Positions 1 to 23,227 of a stretch of DNA of 23,960 bases are shown one piece after another. How positions within the stretch are numbered: position 1 is the first letter of the stretch; each line of letters begins with the position of its first letter. The stretch is from a virus: positions 1 through 23,960 of IMG/VR virus record IMGVR_UViG_3300037502_001253; one strand, written 5' to 3'. The position numbers were made by a program, and so were the translations under genes. The notes under the pieces were generated by a model. That model had not been told where the DNA came from, did no database searches, and saw only the letters and a list, made by a program, of their open reading frames with translations.

Positions 1-420
1 GGTTGCGGCTGTGAGTAGTAGTTCGAATCGGAACTCCCAACAATAAGTATTAGCCTGTACGTTCGTTCCTGTTTGCGGATTGTATATGGTATTGCCCGTT
101 ACCTGCTGTGCGCCACGGGTAAACGGGGCTGTACTAAGCGAAGTAACCACATCACCACGTACATCTATAAGGTCTAATGCAGGGTAAGGCAACGGTGTGC
201 CTATACTGTTCGCCTGTGTCTGCACATAAACCGTGCACGTATCATTAAACAGCCGTTTGTGGGTGAACGTATTTTGCAGCATCCACGGTAGTTGTGTTGC
301 TGCTGCGCTGTACCCGTCAAATGGTTTGGTAGCATATAGCGGGAATGTAGGGTTATCTACTTTGTAGAACCGAAATTCGTTCGCCTTAATAAAGTCCGTT
401 ATGAGGTTAAATACTGCCAT
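1..420 (-). CDS. Tail protein, partial (C-terminus outside window)
   Basis: This open frame starts at the ATG at 420 and runs off the left edge, so only the first 140 residues are visible. It begins MAVFNLITDF and is rich in Thr, Asn, Gln and aromatic residues, with no signal peptide, membrane segment or catalytic motif that I can see. It begins one base after the stop of the 839-aa tail protein, which implies co-transcription and probably translational coupling. Its place downstream of the tape measure and a large tail-tip protein suggests a minor tail or baseplate component. I do not recognise the family, and the function is inferred only from position. Confidence 0.75.
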   Translation of the reverse strand, partial: MAVFNLITDFIKANEFRFYKVDNPTFPLYATKPFDGYSAAATQLPWMLQNTFTHKRLFNDTCTVYVQTQANSIGTPLPYPALDLIDVRGDVVTSLSTAPFTRGAQQVTGNTIYNPQTGTNVQANTYCWEFRFELLLTAAT

Positions 421-421
421 G

Positions 422-2941
422 TTATGCTTTTAATTGTGCGTCTGTTGTGTCGGGGTGAGCGATAAGTTCGAACTGTGTAGGCATTGAATTACCCGCAACC
501 TGTGTAACCTTGTAAATGAATCCTTTGTACTCCACGCCATCCCATGTAAAACTAATATATCCACGTGGATTTGTGTTGATTAGTGTGTACATATTTACAG
601 GATACTTACTTTCTATGCTAAATATGTATGGTCGGAAATACTTATCACCCAATGAACTAATCAGCACATCACCCACCTCTGTTATTCGCACCCCGTTTAG
701 GTTCTTTTCTATGCCGGGTAATTCAGTTGCAGGGGTTGACGGGTTGTTATACTGCTGTTGGTACTGTTTGCGGTAAGTAACAAAATCACTTGCGCCTTCC
801 ATACCATCGCATATAGTGCGAATGAACCTGCCTAAACGTAGTTTATTACTTGCAGGGGTTAATCCTGTGTTTATAGCCGTTTCTGGGTACTTTAAGCCGT
901 AGATATACGGAGTGGTGGCAGGGTTGGTACTTTGAGCCGTTGGGTAGTAAGCTAATGCAAGCGCATCGACTGTGAGCGCATCACCTGACGGGTCGTAAAC
1001 CGTTACTTCCTCTACAAGATTGTTCGTTATCTCAAATATCACCAAGTCATTAGAAGACGATGGCGAACTATCACGGCTGTTATTTTGCGCCCTTGCTTTC
1101 TCTATGTAGTACATTTCTGCATTACATTCGGTTACTTGCAGGTCTATGTCTTTCGGTGTTTTATTCAGCGGCACTTCATAACGCTGCTCGATGTTGAACG
1201 CATCGGTAGCGAAGTTCTTGTTTGTATCAGATTGCCCGAAACCACCGTTAATACGGTTACCCATTAATTCCGTGAATGGCTTTATAGTAAATCCTGATAC
1301 CGTTGTGCCTAAATCGAGTATCTCCGTGTCCTTATCGAACCAATACTCTAACGGCTCAATACGCATACCTAAATCAGATGTGATACCTAAACCACATGCG
1401 TACATCTTAAAGCAGATATTGAATAAATCGGATAGACTGATATTCATGTACGGATAGCCCTTAATATTACGAATAGCATTCTCCGATGTGAGCATAGTAA
1501 GGTATGGTATGCTATCGTAGTAATCTTCAAGGGATAGCCCCGCATTAGTCAGGAACGTACTGATTGCACTATATCCAGTGCCTTGTAATACAGGGAATCC
1601 ATACGGGTCTGTTTCGGTGCTGTCTATTACGTCCAAGATGTTGCTGAATACATTGAATAGGCGTTGCCCTACTATTATAGATTCGGGTAGTATCGCCCCG
1701 TCAACTGGGGAAGCTGTACCGCTATTGTAGGATGTTTCAACTGTAACGTACAGTTCCTTAAACGACACCTGCGAAACGTTTGTACTGCCGCTTATGCCTG
1801 ATATAACACCGTCATAAAGAATACCGATGCAATAGCATTTATTATAGTTTAATGTTACTGCCACTGTGTTTGTGAATGCAGGCGTAGGTGGTGTATAAGG
1901 CGAGCCACCTGCTGGTACTGTTATGTAGTACAACGAAGTGTATTGGTAGTTGCCGCCAGACATAACAGGCAAGTCATCGTCCCCGATTTCAAATAAGGCG
2001 ACTATTATTGCTTGGTCTTGAGTTATCGGGTTATTGTATGTAATGTCTCCATCAAATTCACCTGTTACGGTAAAGTTTGCGGTGATTGTAGGGCAATTCG
2101 GTAGTAAGTGTTTAAATATTCCCCTATTTAGCGTATAAGCCTGAATGTCATCCACTCCCTCAAAGTTCCTGTTATAGTTATACGCTTGGTTGTATTGAGG
2201 CAAAAAAGGCTGTAAAATGTCATTACCAATATAAGTAGTAGTGCCGTTATTTTGCGTAACGTTTACCTGACTCATAGCGGGAATCCAGTGCCGACCATCC
2301 GAAACACTACCTCTATTCCATCCGTACAATGTACCATTACGAGTTAATGGGGCTGCTCCCGATGCCGATGTTTGCCACTTTGCGCCCCAAAAAACCTTTA
2401 TCCCACCATGAACCAAAAAATCACTCCCTGCCGATATATAATCCCATGTGTCCGTATCGGGGTCATAATCCCAAAAAGGAATATTAAACTTACTTGATGC
2501 CTTTGATTTGAGCAGTTCGTACAGTTTACCATCCAATGTAGCAACCGAAACTATTTGTTTCTGCTTATTGTCGTTGTACGGGCTAAAGTCAATTTCTGAT
2601 TTGTAGAAAAGGTCGTAGCTGAATGTTTCGGAATCCAATAACCACACTTTAAGTACCGCAAACGCATTCACCCCGCCACTACCGAACATGATACTGTTGA
2701 TGATAGCCCGTCCGTCTGCTGTGAACTGCATAGTCTGTGACTGCGAACGAAACACCCCGAAATAGGTCATGTTACGCTCCCATGTAACGCCTGTATTCTC
2801 CCATCCTAACGGGTTAATGGTAAGATAGGTGAGCGTAGGCGTAGTGGCTACCGTCCACGTGTTATCGCTGTTTTTAGTAGCGGTGTAGTAGTTGTCCGAT
2901 GCGTCCTGAATCGTAAACCTTATTCTGCTTTGGTATGCCAT
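422..2941 (-). CDS. Large tail-tip / minor tail protein (839 aa)
   Basis: The protein is 839 residues long and starts MAYQSRIRFT. It is soluble-looking, rich in Tyr, Asn, Thr and Gly, and beta-type in composition, without a signal peptide or clear membrane helix. Its middle part (about residues 440-560) has the pattern DLFNICFKMYACGLGI followed by RIEPLEYWF, which I associate with central tail proteins of Bacteroidota phages that follow the tape measure gene. The start codon shares one base with the tape measure stop (TAATG), typical of coupled phage structural genes. The likely role is a distal tail, hub or baseplate component that joins the tail tube to receptor-binding proteins. The assignment rests on size, composition and order; no enzymatic domain was seen. 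Confidence 0.8.
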   Translation of the reverse strand: MAYQSRIRFTIQDASDNYYTATKNSDNTWTVATTPTLTYLTINPLGWENTGVTWERNMTYFGVFRSQSQTMQFTADGRAIINSIMFGSGGVNAFAVLKVWLLDSETFSYDLFYKSEIDFSPYNDNKQKQIVSVATLDGKLYELLKSKASSKFNIPFWDYDPDTDTWDYISAGSDFLVHGGIKVFWGAKWQTSASGAAPLTRNGTLYGWNRGSVSDGRHWIPAMSQVNVTQNNGTTTYIGNDILQPFLPQYNQAYNYNRNFEGVDDIQAYTLNRGIFKHLLPNCPTITANFTVTGEFDGDITYNNPITQDQAIIVALFEIGDDDLPVMSGGNYQYTSLYYITVPAGGSPYTPPTPAFTNTVAVTLNYNKCYCIGILYDGVISGISGSTNVSQVSFKELYVTVETSYNSGTASPVDGAILPESIIVGQRLFNVFSNILDVIDSTETDPYGFPVLQGTGYSAISTFLTNAGLSLEDYYDSIPYLTMLTSENAIRNIKGYPYMNISLSDLFNICFKMYACGLGITSDLGMRIEPLEYWFDKDTEILDLGTTVSGFTIKPFTELMGNRINGGFGQSDTNKNFATDAFNIEQRYEVPLNKTPKDIDLQVTECNAEMYYIEKARAQNNSRDSSPSSSNDLVIFEITNNLVEEVTVYDPSGDALTVDALALAYYPTAQSTNPATTPYIYGLKYPETAINTGLTPASNKLRLGRFIRTICDGMEGASDFVTYRKQYQQQYNNPSTPATELPGIEKNLNGVRITEVGDVLISSLGDKYFRPYIFSIESKYPVNMYTLINTNPRGYISFTWDGVEYKGFIYKVTQVAGNSMPTQFELIAHPDTTDAQLKA

Positions 2942-5900
2942 TATTTGCCTTGTAAGTTACGCTCCCGCCTCATTTCTTCGGCTATTGCATTCATGTTAAT
3001 ATTCGGTCTGTTTGCCCTTGCTATTTGCGCCCACGACAATGCTAACGCCTCGCCCGTTTCGCTGAATCCGTTGTTAATCGCTTCGATCCATTTGTATGGG
3101 TTGTCGTTTGCTGTACTATTCACACTACCGATACGATACCCGCCTGTTGCATCTACGTTTTTCAGGTACTTATCAATCGGTATAACCTTAGTGCCTGCTG
3201 ATTCATTGTACAGCGTTGACGTAGATGCAGACCAGTAAGGTGCTTTATTCGGTGGCGCAATCAATTCAGGCGCACCCCCATCACCCGCTATGAACGCACC
3301 GCCTTTGTGATAGTCTGTTCCTTCTTTGTAAGCGGGGATAGGTGCTGACGCAACCGATGCCAACTGTGCCGCTCCTGCTGCTGCAATCAGCGCAACTACG
3401 AATGGTGCCGCTGGACCCAACTTCAATGCACTTGCAATAGCTACGGCTGTGTTCTGAATGATAGACGCTATTGCTGCGGCTTTCTCAAACCTTGCCTGCT
3501 TTATTGCCGCCTCTTTCTTTTGCTGCTCAATTGCCGCCTCTTGTTCTGCTCGCTGCGAATTCAATTTAGCCACACGCTCTGCATATTCTTCCTCTGTTTT
3601 GCTTGTAGCATCTATGAGGTTCATTTGCAGGTCGTAGTTAGTCTGTATCGCCTCACGCTTACGGTCTAACATCGCCATTTCTGCCTCGTATTGCCTACGA
3701 TTAGCCGAAATAATCGCATCTGCTGCTTGGTTGGCAAGGTTAATAGATGCGTCATAAAACGCCTGTTGTTCTGATTCATCTGTAATGCCTAATGAAGTAG
3801 CCAAACCGTCTGTTAACCTGCCGCTTTTGCTTGCTCTGCCCTGCGACATTTGCGACTTTGCCTTTCTCGCTTGGTTGAGTTTCTTTTGTATCTCCAACTG
3901 CTTTTCAGCCGATAACGTCTGATTTTGAAGTAGTTTTTCGTATAGGTCTATATCGTCCTGTAACAACATTGCGCCCTCTGTTTTGCGTAGGTGCGCCATG
4001 CGTTTGTTGTATTCCTTTTGCGTAATTTCCTTGTTCTGCAATGCACGGTTAAGCAGTTCGGCATCTTTAAGAAACAGGTTTATTTGCAGTTCTTTTAGTT
4101 TCTCGTTGCGGAATTCTTCGGATTTAATCCACTTTTCGTTGTTGGAGTAAACGATATTTAGTATATCCTGCTTTGCTTTGGCTGTTTCTGCTGCTGTCTT
4201 AGCATCGAAGTCTTTATTTAGCTGGGATATACGAATCAATGCGGCATATTCGGCATCGTAGGTGTTCTGCAATGCCTGCCCCGTAGCTGTTTTGCGCTCT
4301 TGCTCTGCTTGTTTTATTTTTTCACGCTCTAATTCTACTTCCTTATTGCGCTGTTCTTCAAGTATCTGCAATACTGCTGCATTGTAGGCATTATAAGCGT
4401 TTAAGCGTTCTTCTAATGACTTGGTTTCGTCTTGGTAAATAGACTCGTTTTTATCACGGTTATTCTCTAATTCGGCTATGCCTGCATCGTACGCGGCTTT
4501 TAACGCCTCGTTGGTGGCTGTTGTTGTGCCTTTGGTGGTAGTCCCCTTACCTGTTTTTGTATCAATCAATTTAGCAGATGCAACAGTGTATTTATCTACC
4601 AGTTTTTCGTACTGTTTAATAGCTTCTTCCGATGCTGCAATAGAATCTTGTAATGCCTGTGTGCGTTCGTCTTGGTCGTAAATAAATGCCTGTGGCGCAC
4701 CACCTACGCCTGTTCCCATCATGGTTTTATCACGCATTCTACCTAATTCCGCCTCTGCCGCTATAATCTTTTCATATTCCTTGGTTATCTTATCGCCTAT
4801 TGCAGTAGCCATTGCACGGGCTGTAATGGCTTTATTCAGTTCGTACAGGGCATCGGTAATATCACCTGTCAACATCTTTTCCTTAGACAGATTACCCAAG
4901 TAAGCAGGGTACATCTCCTGCAATTGCTTAACTGCATTAGTGCGTATATCCATCGCCAATGCCGTATTCTTTGCGGTCTGTACCAATACCGCCACCCTCG
5001 ACTGTTCAGATGCAGCCGACTTTTGAGCCTGTTTATCAATCTCTTTCAGTTCGTCATTCAGTTTCTTTGTTGCATCGGTAGCGTCTTTCGTCTTGTTCTT
5101 GAATATGTCCAATTTCGTTGCAAGTATGGTAAATATACCTATGCCCAATGTGAGAATACCTGTCGGGCTGAATATGCTGCCTAACAAAGTTTTCCATATC
5201 GGGATAGTCTTAGCCCCAGACGCTTTTAATTCCTCATTGGCTACCTTCAACCGCTTAATTTCGTCAATCAGTATCGGTATGTTATTACTGATAGCCATGA
5301 TGCCAGTACCAAAACTATAAGCAAATGCAGGCGTTTCACGTAACAACTGTTGCATGGCAAATGCAGCTTGGTTGTATTGTCCGACTTGGCGTTGACCCTG
5401 CCCGACAGCCATTTCAACCTTTAACAGTTGTTCGTACATTACTTTGGCATTAGCTGCTGCGTCTTTGAATTCCTTACTATTTTCTCCTACTGCAAATGCA
5501 AGACGCTTCGCCTCCGCTGCTGTGGCATTGTACGCCCTTTTAGCTTGCTCGTACTCATTATTAAGCACGGCTAACGCCTTCGCCTCTCTCGCTGCCGCTT
5601 TCTCCGCTTCAGCTGCTGCTCTTTGCGCTAATTGCTCTTTCTTTGCCGCTGCTTTTTCTTCATCGGCAATCATTTTATTTAGTATCTTTTCTTCGACTGC
5701 CGCCCGTTTCTGCTGTGCTGCTATCGCTTTTGCGTTCGCCTTTTCTTCGGCTGCAATCATTCGGTTAAGTGCATCCTCTTCTTTCTTAACCCTCGCTTGT
5801 TGTGCCGCTATTGCCCGTTGTTCTGCTTTCTCCTTTGCCGCCGCCTGTTTCTCATAACCCGCTAACGCCTTAGCTACTGCCGCCTGCTCACGTACCTGCG

Positions 5901-6144
5901 CCCTATCAATTTCATCGGCAAAATCCCGTTGCGCCTTAGTCATCTTCTCGGTGGTTTCTTTGACCTTGTTCTGCAACTCATTGAGCGTGGCAAAGTCTTT
6001 TACCCCCTTAAATTCAACGGTGATTCCTTTGGCAACCTGTCCAAACTTTGTTATATTCTGTATCGCTGATTCTAAGCCCTCGTTCAGTTCCCGTAACTGC
6101 CGTTCCCCTTCAGGACTTATAATCTCACTTATGTTGTCTGCCAT
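2941..6144 (-). CDS. Tail tape measure protein (1067 aa)
   Basis: This is the longest gene in the window, as expected for the protein that sets tail length and occupies the tail lumen. Residues about 55-250 are an Ala/Lys/Glu-rich coiled coil. Residues about 275-345 contain hydrophobic stretches (GIMAISNNIPILIDEI, then LTLGIGIFTIL). A second coiled-coil-rich stretch follows. Near the C-terminus (about 890-925) is an Ala-rich hydrophobic helix, then the motif GTDYHKGGAFIAGDGGAPEL (about 938-957), which is widely seen near the C-terminus of tape measure proteins. The start overlaps the end of the upstream chaperone candidate by 20 bases, and the stop overlaps the next tail gene by one base. Residues 111-168 hold a 29-residue duplication. 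High confidence from length, motif and context. Confidence 0.95.
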   Translation of the reverse strand: MADNISEIISPEGERQLRELNEGLESAIQNITKFGQVAKGITVEFKGVKDFATLNELQNKVKETTEKMTKAQRDFADEIDRAQVREQAAVAKALAGYEKQAAAKEKAEQRAIAAQQARVKKEEDALNRMIAAEEKANAKAIAAQQKRAAVEEKILNKMIADEEKAAAKKEQLAQRAAAEAEKAAAREAKALAVLNNEYEQAKRAYNATAAEAKRLAFAVGENSKEFKDAAANAKVMYEQLLKVEMAVGQGQRQVGQYNQAAFAMQQLLRETPAFAYSFGTGIMAISNNIPILIDEIKRLKVANEELKASGAKTIPIWKTLLGSIFSPTGILTLGIGIFTILATKLDIFKNKTKDATDATKKLNDELKEIDKQAQKSAASEQSRVAVLVQTAKNTALAMDIRTNAVKQLQEMYPAYLGNLSKEKMLTGDITDALYELNKAITARAMATAIGDKITKEYEKIIAAEAELGRMRDKTMMGTGVGGAPQAFIYDQDERTQALQDSIAASEEAIKQYEKLVDKYTVASAKLIDTKTGKGTTTKGTTTATNEALKAAYDAGIAELENNRDKNESIYQDETKSLEERLNAYNAYNAAVLQILEEQRNKEVELEREKIKQAEQERKTATGQALQNTYDAEYAALIRISQLNKDFDAKTAAETAKAKQDILNIVYSNNEKWIKSEEFRNEKLKELQINLFLKDAELLNRALQNKEITQKEYNKRMAHLRKTEGAMLLQDDIDLYEKLLQNQTLSAEKQLEIQKKLNQARKAKSQMSQGRASKSGRLTDGLATSLGITDESEQQAFYDASINLANQAADAIISANRRQYEAEMAMLDRKREAIQTNYDLQMNLIDATSKTEEEYAERVAKLNSQRAEQEAAIEQQKKEAAIKQARFEKAAAIASIIQNTAVAIASALKLGPAAPFVVALIAAAGAAQLASVASAPIPAYKEGTDYHKGGAFIAGDGGAPELIAPPNKAPYWSASTSTLYNESAGTKVIPIDKYLKNVDATGGYRIGSVNSTANDNPYKWIEAINNGFSETGEALALSWAQIARANRPNINMNAIAEEMRRERNLQGK
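5641..5814 (-). repeat. 29-residue tandem duplication in tape measure coiled coil
   Basis: Residues 111-139 and 140-168 of the tape measure protein are two similar units. Each begins AIAAQQ, passes through an EE.ALNRMIA or EEKILNKMIA segment and ends EEKA.AK. The period of 29 residues is four heptads plus one, compatible with a continued coiled coil. Duplications of this kind are one known way tape measure proteins change length. Confidence 0.7.
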
Positions 6145-6862
6145 TTCTTTCTATTGTGTTTTTAAGCCTGCGAATACAGATTGCGTATAGTTCTGCGCTT
6201 ATTTCGGTTGTGTAGGAACTGCCCTCGTGTTTGTTGATGTCCAACAACATTTCTAAGTAGTCCTCACGGGTGGTCTTTCTGCCTTGCTTCGTTTTCTCTA
6301 ACTGCTTTAGTTCGTTCTGCAATTCTTCCAAACGCATTTCATTGCGCTTTTCGATTGTTCGCACGTAACCCATCTCTGTCTGATACGTATCGGCTGTGAA
6401 CTTGAACTTAGGGTATTCCTCACGTAGCAATTGCGCCACTTCTTCAAGGTATTTTAGCGACATTGCATGTAGCATGTAGTCTATGTACAACTGCCGCCAT
6501 TGTATGCCTAAAATAGCCGTTATTACTTCCATGTGACGGGTATATCCGTCATCCCCCAACATTCGGTAATAATCGTTTAGCACTCGCAGCCATGCAGCAT
6601 ATAACTCGGTTTCTGTTCCTTCGCCTAATACGGTGTAGTTTCCTTCGACTGCGCATGATATGAATTGATTTAGTGTTACGTCCTTACACGACTGTGCAAT
6701 ATTCGATGACTTCGAGACGTTGGCAGTCTTCGTGGTCGATGGTTCGCCACATGTAGCCGGGGTTGGCGTTCTTCGTGCGAATAAGCGCAAATGCAGAAAG
6801 TCCTCTGCTCTTTGCATCCATGTTCGCTTTTCGCTTGATTTCGGTGTATCGTGCATTGTCAA
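6125..6862 (-). CDS. Putative tail assembly chaperone before tape measure; start uncertain
   Basis: The open frame is 245 residues from its first ATG. The convincing part begins near VTLNQFISCAVEGNYTVLG (about residue 62) and continues as a helical, Trp/Tyr/Leu-rich protein ending RNGRQHK. It lies directly upstream of the tape measure gene and overlaps it by 20 bases, the position of tail assembly chaperones. The first 59 codons overlap the 71-aa gene 6684-6899 in another frame, and that gene looks genuine. No ATG, GTG or TTG occurs in this frame between the overlap and the conserved part. Either translation starts inside the neighbour, a rare start such as ATT near codon 53 is used, or the two frames are joined by a +1 or -2 frameshift. 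The family is not certain. Confidence 0.7.
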   Translation of the reverse strand: MTMHDTPKSSEKRTWMQRAEDFLHLRLFARRTPTPATCGEPSTTKTANVSKSSNIAQSCKDVTLNQFISCAVEGNYTVLGEGTETELYAAWLRVLNDYYRMLGDDGYTRHMEVITAILGIQWRQLYIDYMLHAMSLKYLEEVAQLLREEYPKFKFTADTYQTEMGYVRTIEKRNEMRLEELQNELKQLEKTKQGRKTTREDYLEMLLDINKHEGSSYTTEISAELYAICIRRLKNTIERNGRQHK

Positions 6863-6899
6863 TCTCTTGTTTGTTGGTACATGAAGAACATGCGCTCAT
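6684..6899 (-). CDS. Small cysteine-containing phage protein (71 aa)
   Basis: The 71-residue protein opens MSACSSC, giving a CxxC pair at C4/C7, and ends EVIEYCTVV. A basic helix (about residues 13-35) is followed by a short beta-like segment. It resembles small CxxC proteins I have seen in tail regions of Bacteroidota phages, but I cannot give a function. Its ATG overlaps the stop of the 65-aa gene upstream by four bases (ATGA), which supports it as a real, coupled gene. Its 3' part overlaps the long open frame 6125-6862, which lies +1 relative to it, so it may be the N-terminal half of a frameshifted product. Confidence 0.65.
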   Translation of the reverse strand: MSACSSCTNKQEIDNARYTEIKRKANMDAKSRGLSAFALIRTKNANPGYMWRTIDHEDCQRLEVIEYCTVV

Positions 6900-7093
6900 A
6901 AATTCAGTATTTGGTTACGCTCCAATGATAACTCAAATTCGTAGTGGCAACTTGTAGTAGTGCAATTAATCAATTCGTACATCACAGACCCAGCGTCAAC
7001 AATGATACACGTTATAATACGTGGTAGTTGTTCTTCTTCGGTTTTTAGATAAACCATTTGCCCTATCTCGAACTTGTTATCTATGACCATCAT
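6896..7093 (-). CDS. Small conserved Bacteroidota phage protein (65 aa)
   Basis: The protein reads MMVIDNKFEIGQMVYLKTEE, then QLPRIIT, a central beta segment, and HYEFELS before a short C-terminal tail. The pattern KF.IG..VYLKT...Q.PRI..., ending in Y.FE.S, is one I recognise from small proteins common in Bacteroidota phages and mobile elements. It has the look of a small SH3-like barrel, but its role is unknown. Two adjacent ATGs (7093 and 7090) are possible starts. A promoter-like TAAATTTG lies four bases before the first ATG. The stop overlaps the next gene by four bases. Confidence 0.75.
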   Translation of the reverse strand: MMVIDNKFEIGQMVYLKTEEEQLPRIITCIIVDAGSVMYELINCTTTSCHYEFELSLERNQILNL

Positions 7094-7097
7094 AAGC

Positions 7098-7105
7098 CAA
7101 ATTTA
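7098..7105 (-). promoter_or_regulatory. TAAATTTG -7-like element before the 65-aa gene
   Basis: On the minus strand this octamer fits the Bacteroidota -7 consensus TAnnTTTG and ends four bases before the ATG at 7093. No TTTG box is seen at 19-21 bp upstream, so it may be chance. If active, the transcript would be nearly leaderless. Confidence 0.3.
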
Positions 7106-7114
7106 CGCCAAAAA

Positions 7115-7528
7115 TCACAATTGTAACGCATCCTTTAGTTCCCGTACAAAACTATCCCGAATAATAAACCACGCCTGTTGTTTCCCCTCTGTCGTTAGCC
7201 CGTAGATAGTCGGACGTTTACCAGATACATACGGGCTGTAATCCACACGGCTGCTTATTTCGTACTGCTGCCCCTGTATAGTCAGTTCCATTTCACGCTG
7301 CAACCGTCCTGTACGGTAAATGTCCACAAATCCCCTTGATGGCTTACGCTTGGCATAGTCTGGGCTGTACGGTGGCAACGGATTTCCGTCCTTGCCAATA
7401 CCCTTGTCGTACAACTGCGAACGGTTAATGTCAAGTACCTGCTGCTCATTTGCTACCATAGCATCCCCAGCCGCTTTGATACGGTCAAACGCCTTTAGCC
7501 TGTCTAACATCTGTCGTACTGTTGCCAT
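7115..7528 (-). CDS. Putative tail completion / minor tail protein (137 aa)
   Basis: I place the start at MATVRQMLDRLK (ATG at 7528). The longer frame to 7588 would begin inside a GC-rich hairpin and encode an odd Ala/Pro-rich extension. The protein has an N-terminal helix, then QLYDKGIGKDGNPLPPYSPD and YAKRKPSRG. It continues to FVDIYRTGRLQREMEL and ends in a short helix. The pattern of a modified-residue linker, a TG.L..M.L strand and a final helix resembles tail completion proteins of the HK97 gp10 type and related Bacteroidota phage proteins. That resemblance is weak and by eye only. It is followed 21 bases later by the 65-aa gene. Confidence 0.7.
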   Translation of the reverse strand: MATVRQMLDRLKAFDRIKAAGDAMVANEQQVLDINRSQLYDKGIGKDGNPLPPYSPDYAKRKPSRGFVDIYRTGRLQREMELTIQGQQYEISSRVDYSPYVSGKRPTIYGLTTEGKQQAWFIIRDSFVRELKDALQL

Positions 7529-7544
7529 AAGAGTATTTAAAGGA

Positions 7545-7570
7545 AGGGCGGGAGCATATACCCCCGCCCT
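7545..7570 (-). terminator. GC-rich hairpin between tail genes
   Basis: A perfect 8-bp inverted repeat, AGGGCGGG at 7545-7552 and CCCGCCCT at 7563-7570, encloses a 10-base loop. On the minus strand it is followed by TTCCTTTAAA, a weak U-rich run. It lies 31 bases after the stop of the 76-aa gene and 17 bases before the next ATG. It could be a partial terminator that lowers expression of the distal tail genes relative to the tail tube, or an RNA processing or stability hairpin. Confidence 0.6.
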
Positions 7571-7600
7571 GTAACCAACACGAACCAAAAGAAAGCGAGG

Positions 7601-7831
7601 TTACTCTACGGGCTTTTCAGCCTTTGAAGCCTTTTTTGCGGGTGCTGCCTGTACAGGAACACACACACTATACACCGTTTTCAGCGATGACTCACGTTCA
7701 TGAGTGTGCTTAAACGGGTAGATATGCGATTCCGATACAAATGCAGCAACAAAGTCCGCTTCGGTGGCGTATGCCGCTACTGCTGCGACATTCCACTCCA
7801 TACCATCTACTTTAACTGTTGTCTTGCTCAT
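7601..7831 (-). CDS. Small protein following tail tube (76 aa)
   Basis: This 76-residue protein starts MSKTTVKVDG. It has a central segment with the pattern W...AVAAYATEADFVAAF, a basic HTHERESSLK stretch, and a Lys/Ala/Pro-rich C-terminal tail ending KKASKAEKPVE. It has no cysteine pair, signal peptide or membrane segment. It begins 11 bases after the tail tube stop and is followed by a GC-rich hairpin. Small proteins of this shape often follow the tail tube gene in Bacteroidota phages. A tail assembly role is possible, but I do not recognise a characterised family. Confidence 0.65.
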   Translation of the reverse strand: MSKTTVKVDGMEWNVAAVAAYATEADFVAAFVSESHIYPFKHTHERESSLKTVYSVCVPVQAAPAKKASKAEKPVE

Positions 7832-7842
7832 ATTCTACGCTA

Positions 7843-8811
7843 TTATGGGTGAGTATAAGTATAAACAGTTCCTTCCGATACCGCAGGGCAGAAATAAGGC
7901 GTAGCAAGCAACACCGATGGAACATTCAGGCGCACCGTTACCACGTCTAAGGAAGACAATGTAGATACAGTGAATACCATTTGATCGTTTGTGCTGTCGT
8001 ATGCCACACCTGACGGAGTAAGTGTTGACCCATTCTTGGTGAGCAACCACGCACCTGCCGCATCGAGTACAGTACCGAACTTAGCAAGCAATGACGCCTT
8101 AGCACCTATACCGTCTGTGTACACCTGTACTTTAATAGCAGTAGATGTGTTCGCCAGACCCTGTACTATCAGCGTGTCATACAGCAGTGAAGCCCAATCC
8201 TGTGGAGTAAGGTTAGCCTGCACCATTGCTGCGCTTTCGTTCAATTCAGCGTTGTTCTGAATAATCATATTCACGTTGAACTTAACAAGCGTGTCAACAG
8301 TAGCGGTCTTCATGTCCTGCATGTAGAATGAGAACAGAGATACACCACCAAGACCGCTTGCACCGTCTGCGTCTGTCTTAGATGTGCCGATAAGGTTACC
8401 TGCATCGTCAACCCATGCAAAATCGTATTGGTCTTGAGCTGTAAGACTGTACTGCTTCCACTTAGCAAACTGCGCAAATTGCAGGGTCATGTCCCACTGC
8501 CAGTTGTATGGCGGGAACTGTGTCGGAGTCAGGTAACCGTCTTTGTTTTCGGTCTTTACCGCCTCTGTATTGTCCTGCATCTGCGACAATATGCCCGACA
8601 GTTTCCAACGAAGCCCCGGAGTGTCGTTAGTCAGGCCGTCATAGATATAATCTTTCAGGGCTGCGTTATCGGTCAGCACCGAAGCAGGGATAACAGTTCC
8701 TTTAGGGAACATCAAAAAGTACTTGTAAATTGACGGCTGGAACGCACAGAAGAATTTACCTACGTTGCCCGATGTGCCGCAATTCGATAGATTTAGAATT
8801 GTAGTTGACAT
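7843..8811 (-). CDS. Putative major tail tube protein (322 aa)
   Basis: The 322-residue protein starts MSTTILNLSNCGTSGNVGK. It is acidic to neutral, beta-rich, and has no membrane segments. Residues 1-200 look like the tube domain, with the pattern PPYNWQWDMTLQFAQFAKWK in the middle. The C-terminal hundred residues (DGIGAKASLLAKF onward, with LTPSGVAYDS and TVSTL) resemble a small beta-sandwich appended domain of the kind seen on phage tail tubes. It lies between neck candidates and the tape measure block. No sheath gene is seen beside it, which fits a siphovirus. The call is by position, size and composition rather than a recognised motif. Confidence 0.7.
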   Translation of the reverse strand: MSTTILNLSNCGTSGNVGKFFCAFQPSIYKYFLMFPKGTVIPASVLTDNAALKDYIYDGLTNDTPGLRWKLSGILSQMQDNTEAVKTENKDGYLTPTQFPPYNWQWDMTLQFAQFAKWKQYSLTAQDQYDFAWVDDAGNLIGTSKTDADGASGLGGVSLFSFYMQDMKTATVDTLVKFNVNMIIQNNAELNESAAMVQANLTPQDWASLLYDTLIVQGLANTSTAIKVQVYTDGIGAKASLLAKFGTVLDAAGAWLLTKNGSTLTPSGVAYDSTNDQMVFTVSTLSSLDVVTVRLNVPSVLLATPYFCPAVSEGTVYTYTHP

Positions 8812-8824
8812 TTTTTAGTTGTTT

Positions 8825-9700
8825 TTAATTGTTTTCGTTATAAGTTATTAGTGCGCTGTCACCGTCATTGAAGCTATCAAACGTGAACGTCTGAGTAGAT
8901 GGATTGTACGGCATGTTGTCGATGTTGTTGTTATTGAGTATCACATTCGGGAACACGTATCGGTTCGCCAAGTGAGGTATCGTTAACGTAGAGCCAACGG
9001 GGTATTCCAACGGTATGCGAGTACCGTTTACTAATGTCTGATATTCATTCGGGTCGGGGTTGCTCTTGAAGTTAGCCCGTATGCATCCTGTCATTGCGTT
9101 GAAGTTTTGAGGTAGTATAGGCGGGGTGCAGTCACCGTACATATCGAGTCCCATTGATAGCGTACCGTCAATACGGAAGCATAGACGTGGTTGGTGCTGT
9201 TGGTTCGTAATCACAGCGTCTTTGAACGCCCCCGAATACTTGTTAACCACATTGTCCACATCCCTGCTAACGCTGTTCACGATAAACCCGAACGGAGCAG
9301 GAGTAAGCAGGTCGAGCACGTCACGTACTACCTGTTCATCCATCCTTTGCGGGTTCGTAACGGGTCGCACTTTGGCAAGGTTAACGAAGAAGTACAACGA
9401 TAGGTTATACGTGGTGCGTTCTACGTCAATCAGCATCGGGTCATTAAGTCCTACATAGAACAATGCCTGAATCTTATCGTTGTAGAACATGTCCTTTGAA
9501 TAGTCCTTACCTTGCTGATACCATTGCGGAACAAACCCATCGGCTACGCTGTTTCGGTACACCCTGCCATAAGCCTGCAACATATCACCAGTCATGCCAG
9601 ATGTACCCCACAACACATACAGACGCTCGTACAGGTAGGTAATTATCTTTCCTGTTGCATAGTCTATGCCTGTCGGGTATGGTACTACGTTTATGCTCAT
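8825..9700 (-). CDS. Head-tail connector / tail terminator candidate (291 aa)
   Basis: The 291-residue protein starts MSINVVPYPTGIDYATGKII. Segments such as YERLYVLWGTSG, TTYNLSLYFFVNLAKV and ERTTYN point to a mixed alpha/beta structural protein. The C-terminal third is Asn-rich and ends in IDNMPYNPSTQTFTF and a short acidic tail. Its ATG overlaps the stop of the 381-aa gene by four bases, and the tail tube gene starts 13 bases after its stop. In this position phages usually encode head completion or tail terminator proteins. I do not recognise a named family. Confidence 0.65.
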   Translation of the reverse strand: MSINVVPYPTGIDYATGKIITYLYERLYVLWGTSGMTGDMLQAYGRVYRNSVADGFVPQWYQQGKDYSKDMFYNDKIQALFYVGLNDPMLIDVERTTYNLSLYFFVNLAKVRPVTNPQRMDEQVVRDVLDLLTPAPFGFIVNSVSRDVDNVVNKYSGAFKDAVITNQQHQPRLCFRIDGTLSMGLDMYGDCTPPILPQNFNAMTGCIRANFKSNPDPNEYQTLVNGTRIPLEYPVGSTLTIPHLANRYVFPNVILNNNNIDNMPYNPSTQTFTFDSFNDGDSALITYNENN

Positions 9701-10842
9701 ATCTGATGTCCCCAGCGTGGATAAGTGATTGCCCTGCCGTCATTAACAGGTGGTATTGCGCTCATCGGTTGTTCCTTTGGGATAAACGTCTGTTTAACAC
9801 GTGCCACTTCCTGAATAATACGGTCTTTTAGTCCTTGCCTGTACGGTATGCCCTCGCCACCCCTAAGCCCCTCAATCTCGTTGTAAAGCGTTTCGTACAC
9901 TTCCCTATTAAATCGCTGCTCACCATTCACACGTAGGCTGTTCATCTCTATTTCTATGCATTTCTGCGCCATGATCATATCCTGCAACCTATCGAATGCG
10001 TGTGCATTACGGATAACGGTATTGGTATAATCACGATTGGTAGAAAATTCGAGGTTCAGCCCGTATGTACGGTAATTGCTGAAATACTGGTCACGTACAA
10101 AAGTCTTTTCAGCATAGTTTGAAGTCGCCTCAAAGCCCTGATACCCGATGAAATAAAACGTTTCCCACCAGTTCAGGTACACATCAACCGCCTTTGCCCC
10201 CTGCGCCTCTAACTCGTCCTGATAGTACCCGATGAATATTACACCGCCTTTGTAGTCGTTGTTTAAACGGGATAGAATAACATCGTCTAATACGGTTATC
10301 TCTTGGTTATACCCCTGTGTGACTTCTACTTCCTGTGTATATATTTCATCGAATTTCAGGTCATTGTAGATGTACAGCGTAACGGTACACGGAATGGACA
10401 TCATGAGTGCAATCGACTCCAAACGGGTAGCATAATCACCCTGCGGTAGTTTCACCTGCCATCCGCAAAACTTCCCCGCATTGTCAATAGTGCGATACTG
10501 CGTCCTGAACTGCTTTTCAAACAGTATCTTTGACGGTTCTACTATATCATTTGCACGGAATACCGATAACATGCTCTCTACCGCTACCTGCTGCTTTAAT
10601 GATAGCAAGTAGGCGTTATAGTTTTCGTCTGTTATCGTGCTGTCCTCTTGAGCGTCCCACAACCGAACGGGTGAACATGCGCTGTGTACGTAGTTGTAGT
10701 ACATGCCTGACGTACACTCCGTAACATCGCTATCGAGCACGGGGGTAAAGTCAGAAGAGGTAGGCTGTTGCCACCCCTTCCGACCCATAATGACAGGGAG
10801 CAATCGCTCCAAATCAAGCCCGTTTGTGTACCTTATCGGCAT
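9697..10842 (-). CDS. Structural protein, possible neck component (381 aa)
   Basis: The protein is 381 residues, starting MPIRYTNGLDLERLLPVIMG. Its middle has a probable beta-sandwich section (residues about 115-215, including KFCGWQVKLPQGDYATRLES and VTLYIYNDLKFDEIYT). It ends in a helical region rich in Glu and Arg and a C-terminal TYPRWGHQI. It is larger than usual connector proteins, so it may combine a connector with another domain. It begins seven bases after the stop of the signal-peptide protein upstream and overlaps the next gene by four bases (ATGA). A head-tail joining or capsid-associated role is inferred from order only. Confidence 0.6.
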   Translation of the reverse strand: MPIRYTNGLDLERLLPVIMGRKGWQQPTSSDFTPVLDSDVTECTSGMYYNYVHSACSPVRLWDAQEDSTITDENYNAYLLSLKQQVAVESMLSVFRANDIVEPSKILFEKQFRTQYRTIDNAGKFCGWQVKLPQGDYATRLESIALMMSIPCTVTLYIYNDLKFDEIYTQEVEVTQGYNQEITVLDDVILSRLNNDYKGGVIFIGYYQDELEAQGAKAVDVYLNWWETFYFIGYQGFEATSNYAEKTFVRDQYFSNYRTYGLNLEFSTNRDYTNTVIRNAHAFDRLQDMIMAQKCIEIEMNSLRVNGEQRFNREVYETLYNEIEGLRGGEGIPYRQGLKDRIIQEVARVKQTFIPKEQPMSAIPPVNDGRAITYPRWGHQI

Positions 10843-10849
10843 AGTTTGT

Positions 10850-11344
10850 TTAGTTTAACAGACCAACGTATTTAGCTGCGAGGTAGTAACTGCCACTCAA
10901 AATACTTGTTTGCGTACCACTTGTAATGGCACGTACACGCAAATACTTGAAGTTACATGTAGGTATAAGGAACTGATATGTAGTGTTCTTTACCGTACCT
11001 GTGTCAACAAGACCTACCGACCCTTCTACGTAGTTTTCCAACGTAGTCCAGTTGCCCGATGTAGCCGATGTTGCATCGTTGCTGCCCTGCACGATCATAG
11101 TACATGTTGTAGTACCTGTAATCTGTGTTACAATGTACTTCAACGCTACGGTTGACCATTGGTTGTGGTCATTGCGACCGTTCCAAAGGTATGCCGTGTC
11201 TGCACCGCTCAATGTGTCATTGCTGCCGATGTTCTTCACCGTACCCGCTGCTGTTACTTGGTTGAATGTGCCGCTACGATTGCTCTGTGCGTTTGCGAAC
11301 CCTGCGCAAAGAATGAATGCTATTGCTATTACTATATGTTTCAT
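10850..11344 (-). CDS. Capsid-region protein with an apparent Sec signal peptide (164 aa)
   Basis: The protein opens with a textbook signal peptide: MKH, a hydrophobic core IVIAIAFILCAGF, and a signal peptidase I site after ANA (residue 19). The mature part is Thr/Ser/Gly/Asn-rich and beta-type, with YLWNGRNDHNQWSTV and FKYLRVRAITSG. These resemble a jelly-roll surface or decoration domain. It lies 25 bases after the major capsid stop and before the 381-aa gene, where head decoration or fibre proteins are often found. No later Met could give a signal-free version of useful length. A particle protein that is exported is odd; it may be secreted, or the N-terminus may serve another purpose. Confidence 0.75.
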   Translation of the reverse strand: MKHIVIAIAFILCAGFANAQSNRSGTFNQVTAAGTVKNIGSNDTLSGADTAYLWNGRNDHNQWSTVALKYIVTQITGTTTCTMIVQGSNDATSATSGNWTTLENYVEGSVGLVDTGTVKNTTYQFLIPTCNFKYLRVRAITSGTQTSILSGSYYLAAKYVGLLN

Positions 11345-11369
11345 CTTTTCTATTTTATAGGGTTAACAA

Positions 11370-12422
11370 TTACATTTGAGCGAATGCGTAAACAACAGAT
11401 TCGTTCGCCGTGCTAAGTGGAGTGAGCGAGTTTGCAATGTCCACAGACACTTCAAATTCCATCTCATCATCCTGCGCAACACCGTTTTCAGACGATGTAT
11501 CAGCACGAAGCGAATAACCATGAATAGCGAATACAAGACCACCTGAATAGATACCGCCGGGGTTAGTGATCGGGTCAATGATTGAACCGTAACCACCGAG
11601 ATAGCTATTATAATCACCATGTCCGATACGGTTCTGCTTAGGAATCCACGGAACCATAGCGTATGTGCCGGGCTGCATAACGAGCGCAACGCCATTACCG
11701 TAACCTGAATATGCAAGTTCGATTGATGGGTTGATGTTCATGCCCGTGAACTGGAACATTGTGTTCTGAGCGTTACCTGCGCCCTGTGACTGCCAGAAAG
11801 CGGCGTTTACCTCTGTCTGATTGTCGTAGATAGCATTGAACGTACTCATGTTGTAGTAGTTCGAACGCATAACGGCTTTAGCAAGCTGTGTGAACTGCTT
11901 AGTATCGCCTGCCTGAATCTCATGGAAGTAATCAGATGAGTTCCATGTTACACGGCTACCAACAGGAGTGGACGTTTTAACCACTTGGTTACGGTTGGTA
12001 AGCAGGTAATCGATGGCATCTGTTTCGATAGCCTCATGAATGTTCAAGATACAGTTTTTCAGGTTCTGCGCCATTGCCTGATTGAAGCTGAATATGTTGG
12101 TGTCCATCTGCTTCAATGAGATAGAGAACGTATCGGAGTACGTAGTCCATGTGAAAGGCAGTTGCAAACTGTCGCCCCTTGCGCCTGTGTGCGTGGCAGA
12201 ACGTGCGCTGCCGGGTGTGCGCTGCTGACGAACCATAGAATAGCCATATACGGCACGGTCTTCACGGAGGCGAAGTTCCTCAACGTTCTTGACCATTACA
12301 TTTTTGTTTTGCAAACCGAGTTGCAGGGTAGGCAGCATCTTCTCCCTCATTTCCGCTTCTGTGAACGTTTCTATGAGGGTAGTTTGAGCCGCCACCAGAT
12401 TGGAGGGACTAAAATTAGCCAT
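11370..12422 (-). CDS. Major capsid protein (350 aa)
   Basis: The 350-residue protein starts MANFSPSNLVAAQTT. It has an early basic helical segment (KNVEELRLREDRAVYGY), then RGDSLQLPFTWTTYSDTFSI, a long helix of the kind seen in HK97-fold spines (NLKNCILNIHEAIETDAIDYLL), and a C-terminal beta domain. This composition and order suit a HK97-fold capsid protein of Bacteroidota phages. It has its own good promoter (12530-12562) and a structured 100-base leader, as expected for the most abundant virion protein. It is separated from the scaffold gene by a small island of two extra genes. No fused scaffold or protease domain is seen. Confidence 0.85.
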   Translation of the reverse strand: MANFSPSNLVAAQTTLIETFTEAEMREKMLPTLQLGLQNKNVMVKNVEELRLREDRAVYGYSMVRQQRTPGSARSATHTGARGDSLQLPFTWTTYSDTFSISLKQMDTNIFSFNQAMAQNLKNCILNIHEAIETDAIDYLLTNRNQVVKTSTPVGSRVTWNSSDYFHEIQAGDTKQFTQLAKAVMRSNYYNMSTFNAIYDNQTEVNAAFWQSQGAGNAQNTMFQFTGMNINPSIELAYSGYGNGVALVMQPGTYAMVPWIPKQNRIGHGDYNSYLGGYGSIIDPITNPGGIYSGGLVFAIHGYSLRADTSSENGVAQDDEMEFEVSVDIANSLTPLSTANESVVYAFAQM

Positions 12423-19045: not shown

Positions 19046-19242
19046 TGAAACAGAACAACCCCGTAGGTCGTCCGAAGAAAGGCAACGAAAAACGCTCCTG
19101 TTACGGTGCGTCCCTTGAACCCGCCACCGCTGAACAGGCACGGCTCATATTCGGCTCAGTCGGTAAGGCTGTGGAGTGGGCGGTTAAAATGGCGTATCGT
19201 CAAAATCCGTCCGTCTGTTCTGCATCCCCGCATGTGGATTAG
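19045..19242 (+). CDS. Putative small DNA-binding protein (AT-hook / RHH-like, 65 aa)
   Basis: The frame is taken from the ATG at 19045, MKQNNPVGRPKKGNEKRS. The GRPK tetrapeptide is an AT-hook-like minor-groove element. It is followed by YGASLEPATAEQARLIFGS and VGKAVEWAVKMAYRQ, which has the strand then two-helix layout of ribbon-helix-helix proteins. A repressor-like role for neighbouring promoters, for example the divergent terminase promoter or its own, is plausible. It is the last gene of the plus-strand unit. Its final 59 bases run antisense to the 3' end of the primase-helicase gene, whose acidic tail is encoded there. No terminator is visible between the two. Confidence 0.65.
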   Translation: MKQNNPVGRPKKGNEKRSCYGASLEPATAEQARLIFGSVGKAVEWAVKMAYRQNPSVCSASPHVD

Positions 19243-20938
19243 GCCATCCGTTACTTTGCTGTAGTGGCTCAGGTGGTGCGCTGCTTATTTCGGTGTACCT
19301 GCCTGAATAAACATCGTATGTAAACTCCGACATGCCTATTTTGCCATTAAAAAAGAAACGAACCTTTTGCACATACACGCTCACTTTGTTTGTAACCCTA
19401 TCACGGTACACGGTGAAACCATTATCCGTTTTGTTAAAGAAGTTAGCCGAACCGCTTATGTCGTACAGCGTAGGTATTTCAAAGTCCTTTGTCGCTGGGT
19501 TCTTCTTAATTTTGGTTGGGTGCACAACCATGAAAATGTGAATATCGTAATCCTTTGCAAAGTTGCATATCTCGGTCAGGCACAACGATATGTATTCTGT
19601 TTCCGTCATGTGTGCAGGTCTTTTGTGCTCGATGTAGTTGTACGGGTCAATGACAAGTGCCTTGATTCCGTAAGCCTTAACCAACTGCCTTGCCCGATTC
19701 AGTATGCCATCAAGCGACACATCCTCATTGCGTATCTTGAACCAAAAGAAATGGTCATGCAGAAAGTTCTTTGCGTAGTTAAACTCATCTACGCTCATTC
19801 TGCCCGCCTGCTTAAAGAACGGTTTGCCACTATACACCGATGAAAGATTAGCAGCATGGCGGGTCATTGGCTGATTCTCAAACGAACACACCCCGATTGA
19901 CCACCCATGACGTTCTGCTAATCGTATCAGCACTTGGTCAAGGAAAGCAGACTTACCGCTATTCGGCACACCCGTTATCATCGTAAGTTGCCCACCTGAA
20001 AAGTTAAGCAGGTTATCAAAGTCAGGATAGCCCGTAGTTACTCCACGTTCAAACCCGTTCTCATATACGTTATCCAACTCATACATAAAGTCCGATAACC
20101 TGTAAACCCCCTCAACTGGGAGTGCCTTTGCCCCCGATAAAACCTCACCTACTTTCTCCGTTCCGTACTTCACTAACACCTCATTCAGGTCTTTGCAGTC
20201 GTCAGGGTATCGCACCTCTCTGCAACGGGAACGGTCAAGCCTTCTTGATAATTCGTTTTTAAGGGCTATTCCTGCCTCGTCATTGTCAGTTGCTATGATT
20301 ACCTCATCCGCTTCGTTAAATGCCCACCATGAGGCGTTTAAGTAGTCTAAACGCTGATTTCCTTTCGTTGCACCATTAGGAACTGAACAAACTGCGCTAA
20401 ATCCTGCCTCATATGCGCTCATTGCGTCTATTTCTCCCTCTGTTATGATAACCCGTTTCTGCCCCGCAACAGCATCTATGTTAAAAAGTATTAATTCGGC
20501 ATCTTTGGTCAGCTTGAAGTTCTTCCGTGCGTCCCTGTATTTCACGTTGACCCATGCACCGTTACGGATATACGGGAACAGTATGCAGTTCGATTCGGCA
20601 TTGAGCTGCGGCATCCACTCTTTCTTTTCTGTTATGTGGAAATGCTTTAATGTAACCTCGTTTATGCCTCTTGACTTGAAGTAGCTGATAGTCTTAGCTG
20701 ATAGTGGCAGGCTGACAGTAGGCGGCACAACGTACACTTTCTCCTGCTTTTCGTACAGCCCACCTGTGAACCCGCAATTGTGGCAATTCCAGATACCCTT
20801 GTCGATGTTAACCGATAAGTCCTTACTGTTTCGGTTTTCGGGTTTCCGATTGTGCGGGGTACATGACGGGCAGATCGTTTTGATGTTGCCCGTAGCCCCT
20901 GAGGGTATTTTTATGCCGATTTGTTCAAATGTGCGCAT
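19184..20938 (-). CDS. Primase-helicase (584 aa)
   Basis: This is a two-domain replication protein that makes RNA primers and unwinds DNA at the fork. The N-terminus has a zinc site CPSC...CHNC (cysteines 23, 26, 52, 55). A Toprim core has ITEGEIDAM (Glu168) and ATDNDEAG (Asp218, Asp220). The RecA-like helicase has Walker A GVPNSGKS (323-330) and Walker B ALVIDPYN (Asp431), followed by HPTKIKKN. The architecture is like T7 gp4. The final residues DFDDTPF resemble the acidic tip of SSB proteins. Its ATG overlaps the stop of the initiator gene by one base, and its 3' end overlaps the opposing 65-aa gene by 59 bases. Confidence 0.93.
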   Translation of the reverse strand: MRTFEQIGIKIPSGATGNIKTICPSCTPHNRKPENRNSKDLSVNIDKGIWNCHNCGFTGGLYEKQEKVYVVPPTVSLPLSAKTISYFKSRGINEVTLKHFHITEKKEWMPQLNAESNCILFPYIRNGAWVNVKYRDARKNFKLTKDAELILFNIDAVAGQKRVIITEGEIDAMSAYEAGFSAVCSVPNGATKGNQRLDYLNASWWAFNEADEVIIATDNDEAGIALKNELSRRLDRSRCREVRYPDDCKDLNEVLVKYGTEKVGEVLSGAKALPVEGVYRLSDFMYELDNVYENGFERGVTTGYPDFDNLLNFSGGQLTMITGVPNSGKSAFLDQVLIRLAERHGWSIGVCSFENQPMTRHAANLSSVYSGKPFFKQAGRMSVDEFNYAKNFLHDHFFWFKIRNEDVSLDGILNRARQLVKAYGIKALVIDPYNYIEHKRPAHMTETEYISLCLTEICNFAKDYDIHIFMVVHPTKIKKNPATKDFEIPTLYDISGSANFFNKTDNGFTVYRDRVTNKVSVYVQKVRFFFNGKIGMSEFTYDVYSGRYTEISSAPPEPLQQSNGWPNPHAGMQNRRTDFDDTPF

Positions 20939-21630
20939 CAGAAAACCATTTTAGTTGTGGGTGGTGTAAGTGTAGCGGGTTGGTCGTTCCAACATTTGCC
21001 GTTCAGGTATGTAAGTGGGTTCTTTCGGAACTTTATCTCTGGGGTCGATTCAAGGTAAGCGGGTAGGGTTCGTTTGATTGCTTCGATTTCATCCCGCTTT
21101 AGGGTCTTGAACTTCTTAAAGCATTTTTCACGGTCAACCTTCTTGCCGTATGCGTCCCAAAAAAACGGAAATTGCGCAATAGAGTATTCTTTATCTTCTT
21201 TATCTTCTTTATCATTATTGTTTGGGGGTAGTGTGCGTTTACTGTGCGTAGTAGTGTGCGTTTCCTGTGCGGTGTCGTCTGCGGGGTAGTGTGCGGTGTC
21301 GTCTGCGTTTACCATTCCGTTATAACTATCATATTTACAGACAGTTATCCGTGTACTAACCGTGACGTTTTCGATGGTAATCATACGGTCTTTTTCGAGC
21401 ATACGGAAGAACGAAGCGACTGTCTTTTTTGTCGTTTTCCACTCCGATGCCCATGTATCAAGGCTTTTGACGGACTGCCCTCTTGCGCAATCTATCAGCT
21501 TTCCCTTGATAAATACGCGATTTTTTGCGTGATTTACGCAAAGTAAGATGTCAATCCACCATTGAAGCCGCTTAGGGTCTGACCATATCCAATGAGATTT
21601 TATTTGCCTGTGTAGTCGAATCCAAGACAT
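20938..21630 (-). CDS. Replication initiator / helicase loader (230 aa)
   Basis: The N-terminus MSWIRLHRQIKSHWIWSDPK, then ARGQSVKSLDTWASEWKTTK and KTVASFFRMLEKDRMITIE, is the winged-helix layout common to phage initiators of the DnaD/lambda-O-like group. A low-complexity linker follows (residues about 105-147, with ADDTAHYP/ADDTAQET and DKEDKEDKE). The C-terminal domain has the pattern FWDAYGKKVDREKCFKKFKT, LKRDEIEAIKRTLPAYLES and NPLTYLNGKCW, known from phage replication proteins that load helicase. The primase-helicase gene overlaps its stop, in keeping with partnership. The DNA coding the linker carries regularly spaced short repeats that may be the origin. Confidence 0.85.
   Translation of the reverse strand: MSWIRLHRQIKSHWIWSDPKRLQWWIDILLCVNHAKNRVFIKGKLIDCARGQSVKSLDTWASEWKTTKKTVASFFRMLEKDRMITIENVTVSTRITVCKYDSYNGMVNADDTAHYPADDTAQETHTTTHSKRTLPPNNNDKEDKEDKEYSIAQFPFFWDAYGKKVDREKCFKKFKTLKRDEIEAIKRTLPAYLESTPEIKFRKNPLTYLNGKCWNDQPATLTPPTTKMVF
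21186..21307. other. Candidate replication origin: phased iterons plus AT-rich tract inside initiator gene
   Basis: TGTGCG (or TCTGCG) occurs at 21232, 21243, 21255, 21266, 21278, 21290 and 21302, spaced 11, 12, 11, 12, 12 and 12 bases, about one helical turn. Within this is an 18-bp perfect direct repeat (21266-21283 and 21290-21307) and a 13-bp repeat (21228-21240 and 21251-21263). Next to it is an AT-rich tract with three 9-bp TTTATCTTC-type repeats (21190-21216). The layout, iterons then an AT-rich segment inside the initiator's own linker, matches the lambda O/ori design. That it acts as an origin is inferred. Confidence 0.65.
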
Positions 21631-21837: not shown

Positions 21838-21949
21838 TCCCACAAGGGATTGACGGGTAGTAGCGGCGAACTGTTTTACGGTTGCCTCCGTCAGCCCCTT
21901 GTGGGCTAAAAATGTCGTTAAATCATCTGGGCTACTACCTCCAAACGTT
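21838..21949 (-). ncRNA. Structured leader RNA with attenuator-like and pseudoknot pairings
   Basis: Read on the minus strand, CCCACAAGGG (21905-21896) pairs perfectly with CCCTTGTGGG (21848-21839), followed by ATTTTTAATTTT and then the ATG at 21826. Inside it TGACGG/CCGTCA (21893-21888 and 21856-21851) and an imperfect GGCAAC/GTTCGCC hairpin can form. An alternative hairpin AGCCC/GGGCT (21907-21903 and 21897-21893) would break the outer stem. GGTAGTAGC (21939-21931) is complementary to GCTACTACC (21864-21856) in the interior loop. Competing stems, a U-tract and a pseudoknot are what an attenuator or riboswitch-like leader would show. I recognise no known RNA family. Confidence 0.6.
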
Positions 21950-22795: not shown

Positions 22796-23227
22796 CTAAA
22801 AAGGAAGCTCATCGCTGCCCTCTTTCATTGGTTTTGAGAATGGGTCGCCAGTTGCATATCCTGTACCGCCATTAGTTGTATGGTCAGCACTATATACAGG
22901 TATTCCATCATTTACAGGCTGCGCGTTGTTTGCCTCTACGTCTATCTTATACACCTCTACATTCATAAAGAACCGTTCTACATTGTCTTTCATGTACTTC
23001 ACCCCTCGCAGATTACAATGAGCCGTTACCGTCTGCCCTTGTTTCAGGCTATCCATGAACCCGATAATAGTGTCACGTTTGCCGAGTATCGGTATGTACT
23101 GGCTGTACGTTTGCCCGTTGTACTGTTCGTCAACCTGAATAACGATTTGGCGTTCCTTGTAGGTCTTGCCGTTGTGGTCTTTCGATGTTGTTGAGCCTAT
23201 CGCATAGACCGTTCCTTTTACTTCCAT
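22796..23227 (-). CDS. OB-fold single-stranded DNA-binding protein (143 aa)
   Basis: The protein begins MEVKGTVYAIGSTTSKDHNG and continues KTYKERQIVIQVDEQYNGQT, YIPILGKRDTIIGFMDSLKQ and GQTVTAHCNLRG. This is the strand pattern of the OB-fold family DUF3127, which is common in Bacteroidota and used as an SSB by their phages. A flexible Gly/Asn/Thr-rich linker (about 105-130) leads to an acidic, hydrophobic tip, SDELPF, the SSB-type tail that recruits replication proteins. It lies upstream of the nuclease and replication genes, where a phage ssDNA-binding protein is expected. The fold is from family knowledge; the tail is seen directly. Confidence 0.85.
   Translation of the reverse strand: MEVKGTVYAIGSTTSKDHNGKTYKERQIVIQVDEQYNGQTYSQYIPILGKRDTIIGFMDSLKQGQTVTAHCNLRGVKYMKDNVERFFMNVEVYKIDVEANNAQPVNDGIPVYSADHTTNGGTGYATGDPFSKPMKEGSDELPF

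Follow-up and report, generated by a model that had tools for sequence, protein, structure and literature searches.

The window that we analysed, a stretch of 23,960 nucleotides, carries on its minus strand a gene (20938–21630) for a protein of 230 residues. The product matched PHROG 2514 (DnaD-like helicase loader, E = 2.9e-28) and PHROG 270 (replication initiation protein, E = 2.9e-14), and a tblastn search with it found gp38 of phage SPP1 (29.6% identity over residues 2–133, E = 1e-11) together with many further phage initiators. We therefore assigned the gene to the gp38-type (DnaD-like) replication initiators. Pfam gave only sub-threshold chance matches for this protein, and its sequence, when searched against solved structures, had just weak matches to winged-helix proteins, the best at E = 0.012. 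The following gene (19184–20938, minus strand) has an overlap of one base with the initiator gene and encodes a primase-helicase with Toprim and DnaB_C domains (PHROG 239, E = 1.2e-102).

An AlphaFold2 model of the initiator, built from 34 sequences, has a confident N-terminal domain (residues ∼1–105, codons at 21316–21630), a disordered linker (residues 108–143) and a less certain helical C-terminal domain. The N-terminal domain matched winged-helix structures, and CRP-type proteins and the N-terminal domains of plasmid Rep proteins were found with similar Z values, so that the fold alone picks no family for the initiator. The model, the structure matches and the Toprim/DnaB_C domains bear out the earlier note, made from the sequence of this window, which had described a winged-helix-type initiator followed by a primase-helicase. 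The codons of the linker, 21202–21309, match almost exactly the repeat array and most of the AT-rich tract described below.

Upstream of the initiator gene, we observed a strong hairpin, CCCACAAGGG...CCCTTGTGGG, at 21838–21907 (folding z near −4 for either strand, and a run of T on the minus one), which resembles an intrinsic terminator; its stem sequence was absent from bases 1–40000 of the contig of the closest relative, L003. The 20-mers common to the window and the L003 contig lie mostly in the replication region (19–22 kb), with few elsewhere, a distribution that is expected from the exchange of modules between phages. A DUF3127/phage SSB-like gene is present at 22796–23227, and Bacteroidota genomes figure prominently among the initiator's cellular relatives; these two observations suggest that the host belongs to the Bacteroidota. 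Scanning the window with Rfam and for tRNA genes gave no matches.

Within the linker codons, the hexamer TSTGCG starts at 21232, 21243, 21255, 21266, 21278, 21290 and 21302, which confirms the seven hexamers, with steps of 11, 12, 11, 12, 12 and 12 bp, reported in the earlier note. On the coding (minus) strand, the array (21232–21307) reads as seven CGCA[CG]A cores with steps of 12, 12, 12, 11, 12 and 11 bp along the gene. TSTGCG is not enriched over the whole window (33 occurrences against 27 expected), and the signal is one of clustering and spacing rather than of hexamer abundance. We then recoded the linker synonymously, keeping the peptide fixed and using the codon usage of the initiator gene itself. 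A chain of seven CGCA[CG]A cores at 11–12 bp appeared in none of 20,000 recodings, the longest chain having five and occurring once. As the hexamer had been picked after inspection of the data, we also used a self-match statistic independent of that choice: the best frame-breaking self-match of the linker scored 18, and 5,000 recodings reached at most 14. In L003, the closest relative, all seven cores are identical. The description of the repeats as helically phased, with one site per turn, is loose and is not supported in the strict sense. The mean step of 11.67 bp corresponds to ∼1.11 helical turns, giving a drift of ∼40 degrees per successive site, and steps in the family are 11 or 12 bp.

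An AT-rich tract (21187–21223, minus strand), a candidate unwinding element, lies directly beside the hexamers. It has three exact copies of the 9-mer TTCTTTATC at 21187–21213 (GATAAAGAA on the coding strand), in agreement with the three 9-bp repeats noticed earlier. Between the array and the AT-rich repeats, at 21209–21223 (minus strand), is the word AAACAATAATGATAA, hereafter the junction word.

We looked for the same layout among the relatives of the initiator, using 319 family members from viral and genome collections, reduced to 215 by removal of near-duplicates, with 400 synonymous recodings per member and significance at p < 0.01. Frame-breaking repeats were significant in the linkers of 146 of the 215 members, at lags of 11 (106 members), 22 (19), 23 (20) and 20 bp (1), against 1/215 for the winged-helix region and 5/201 for the C-terminal region as controls. 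Repeats that stay in frame, mainly of 12 bp, were significant in 34 members, either kind was found in 166/215, and 49/215, about a quarter, had no significant linker repeat by the recoding test. Some of the family scans used peptide patterns of the AT-rich linker and are thus biased toward members carrying it; when just the two scans restricted to winged-helix motifs were counted, 75 of 117 members were positive. In the 155 arrays having at least four copies, 420 of 648 steps were of 11 bp, 198 of 12 bp and 17 of 10 bp, and steps of 13 bp were also rare. Several linkers, L047, L077, L086 and L120 among them, have purely 12-bp in-frame arrays in which the peptide and the DNA both repeat, and these may show a route by which arrays expand.

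Next, we compared synonymous codon differences in 15 related pairs, as the earlier note had proposed for the linker. Differences were depleted in the array (18/318) and in the AT-rich tract (7/198) relative to the N-terminal domain (246/1306), with stratified z of −6.2 and −5.9, respectively, the p-values being approximate because some pairs share sequences. Between the window and its closest relative, two of the 35 nucleotide changes fell within the array and none in the hexamers. Tandem expansion by replication slippage, in an unconstrained linker whose peptide tolerates anything, would suit the disorder predicted by AlphaFold2 and the pure 12-bp in-frame arrays of some relatives, which resemble such expansions. 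However, the steps that dominate the family are the frame-breaking ones of 11 bp, with 10- and 13-bp steps rare; an unconstrained linker should vary more than the array does at synonymous sites; and the equivalent repeats of SPP1 are bound by gp38 (PMC6316719). We therefore consider slippage very improbable. The earlier note's claim that selection acts on the spacing of the DNA and not on a repeated peptide is supported by the recoding test, the family repeats and the synonymous depletion.

Similarity of the iterons between family members followed that of the N-terminal domain (partial rho 0.27) and not that of the C-terminal domain (0.03), and 89% of the pairs sharing iterons had no detectable similarity in the C-terminal domain. 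Hence, it is probably the winged helix that recognises the repeats, in line with the predicted fold.

The AT-rich tract also shows codon choices beyond its composition. Across the family its mean GC content was 0.23, against 0.40 in the N-terminal domain. Lysine before asparagine was encoded by AAG in 230/262 cases in the tract and in 95/268 elsewhere in the same genes, and asparagine before codons starting with G used AAT in 97% against 58%. Keeping the Lys-Asn context constant controlled for avoidance of A-runs in the AAG comparison. Plain AT-richness was rejected as the source of this bias, as the preference for AAG runs in the opposite direction. A first test, on GC3 of the tract pooled over amino acids, was not significant because Lys on the one hand and Asn/Asp/Glu on the other trended in opposite directions and masked each other.

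Of the 215 linkers, 55 had the junction word as ACAAACAA[GTC]AATG, where shuffles gave 0.1 on average, and 79 had ACAAACAA, where shuffles gave 14.7. The junction word, (C)ACAAACAAKAATG, was observed in all three reading frames (for example TNKND, HKQEC and QTIMNN), one of which holds most of the occurrences, and its form AAACAACAATGATAA also stands in intergenic DNA, apparently that of SPP1 oriR; AAACAATAATGATAA of the window matches it. Selection of the peptide itself, for instance as a flexible spacer with a constant length or as repeats to which a protein binds, with the DNA pattern merely following, would agree with the uniformly hydrophilic linkers, whose AT-rich part usually consists of N, D, K and E residues. 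On the other hand, synonymous recodings that preserve the peptide lose the repeats, the 11-bp steps shift successive repeats between frames, the junction word is kept while its peptides differ, and the origin-coded linker of the pSK41 Rep protein is dispensable in trans (PMC5703833). Thus, we give peptide selection next to no weight.

For plasmid Rep proteins, binding to specific repeats of the unwinding element in its single-stranded form has been shown (PMC4081077), and this analogy suggests a similar role for the junction word, which may be a strand-opening signal apart from the repeats. A broader proposal is that (C)ACAAACAAKAATGWWAA serves all initiators of this class as a conserved signal for strand opening, recognised at the level of DNA, perhaps in single-stranded form, and common to phages with unrelated iterons, so that a second, general recognition code would stand beside the phage-specific iteron code. 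We hold this tentatively, at slightly less than even odds. By occurring across frames, the junction word makes it possible to test directly if these initiators recognise a particular sequence of the unwinding element, in the manner of plasmid Rep proteins (PMC4081077).

Taking these observations together, the segment is very probably (about 0.9) a phage replication origin similar in kind to SPP1 gp38/oriL, contained in the linker codons of the phage's own initiator gene. An origin candidate within the gene beside an AT-rich unwinding region, as the earlier note had it, is by far the best reading in the light of the recoding test, the synonymous depletion and the published work on SPP1. Starting from the observed repeats, their conservation as DNA, the homology and the order of the genes, we propose a course of initiation in which binding, unwinding and helicase loading are modelled on SPP1 and the plasmid Rep proteins. 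Several initiator molecules would line up on the DNA, each repeat of 11–12 bp being occupied by a single winged-helix domain, and the resulting nucleoprotein filament would open the neighbouring AT-rich tract (21187–21223). The C-terminal domain of the initiator would then recruit the primase-helicase, the product of the gene directly downstream, and once this is loaded theta replication would begin. The linker peptide would be largely a by-product of its DNA.

GC skew, also proposed earlier as a check, was only weakly consistent with an origin at this place. Over the window, which is a fragment, the cumulative minimum at 20826 is near the array, but the curve falls and then merely flattens there, and in the L003 contig (bases 1–40000) the minimum at 39332 is ∼1.5 kb off the array of that contig. 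For these reasons, the skew does not discriminate.

These results narrow the likely position of the origin to ∼120 bp in an uncultured phage, whose host is probably one of the Bacteroidota. They also suggest that the origins of a very large family of phage initiators could be read from the sequence, as a winged-helix domain followed by frame-breaking repeats of 11–12 bp. What may be new in this description is the regularity across the family and the recurrence of the junction word in different frames; the available literature did not settle whether they had been described before.

We compared this arrangement with other systems in which an origin is embedded in an initiator gene. The earlier note had taken it for an independent version of the lambda design, which is unsupported, as the initiator is homologous to SPP1 gp38 (E = 1e-11) and belongs to a large family with a common layout. 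In lambda, the iterons lie within the initiator gene, beside an AT-rich region, and are longer, with a period of ∼18–20 bp against 11–12 bp in the window. The initiator had no match to the lambda-O family among Pfam or PHROGs; the working principle is alike, and a common family is not indicated by these matches. The embedded origin of lambda was noted also in a study of phage 80-alpha (PMC5499656), whose ORF20 was reported to be a homologue of G38P with 26% identity. The authors of that study inferred an embedded origin in 80-alpha because deletion of ORF20 was not complemented in trans (PMC5499656). Unlike the initiator of the window, ORF20 is paired with a DnaC-like loader.

The Rep protein of plasmid pSK41 has a DnaD-like structure, and its N-terminal domain binds boxes in the centre of its own rep gene (PMC5703833), the origin coding for the linker here as well. 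Structures of RepA_N N-terminal domains match the initiator model over 87–90 residues (4pql, 4pt7 and 5kbj, with Z of 8.7, 8.4 and 7.7), values tied with those of CRP-type winged helices and not above generic ones. No RepA_N domain was matched in the initiator by Pfam at E up to 1. Moreover, pSK41 is a plasmid replicon with four Rep boxes, whereas the window has seven hexamers and is from a phage.

The closest counterpart is SPP1, whose oriL, situated within gene 38, has direct repeats to which gp38 binds beside an AT-rich unwinding element, and supports theta replication in vitro (PMC6316719, PMC3485210). In an IMG/VR record of 44,010 bp that we took to be SPP1, the repeats of gene 38 are at 35938, within the published oriL clone (35801–36151; PMC5615212) if the numbering is identical, and the gene 38 linker (L004) has a frame-breaking repeat at lag 11 (p = 0.007). 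A second stretch of this record (L338, bases 1–12000), at ∼4878–4953 between two genes, has 82% identity to oriL, with gaps of one base, and keeps the repeats and AAACAACAATGATAA outside any initiator gene, without coding. By its similarity, and from the description in PMC6316719, this stretch is likely the published oriR. A role in stalling forks has been proposed for gp38 when it is bound at oriR (PMC3485210), and binding by the gene's own product would also suit an operator in the window, acting in self-repression or as a fork block with the origin elsewhere. Against this, the array lies deep within the gene and adjoins a conserved AT-rich junction element, as in the proven oriL, and the L003 record, unlike SPP1 with its second origin, had no comparable second array, only isolated CGCA pairs (the window being a fragment). 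An operator is therefore very improbable, and we retain the origin in the initiator gene. Its differences from SPP1 are in the repeat word (AAACGAC/AAAAGAC in SPP1, CGCA[CG]A in the window), in the dissimilar C-terminal part, and in the partners, a separate helicase loader gp39 and helicase gp40 in SPP1 and a primase-helicase in the window. The two share a homologous N-terminal domain, linker codons that carry repeats of ∼11 bp and, after these, an AT-rich tract (with AAACAACAATGATAA in SPP1), and replication genes downstream. With this homology, repeats inside the gene that go beyond the needs of the peptide and a neighbouring AT-rich tract, the module in the window is of the same kind as SPP1 gp38/oriL.
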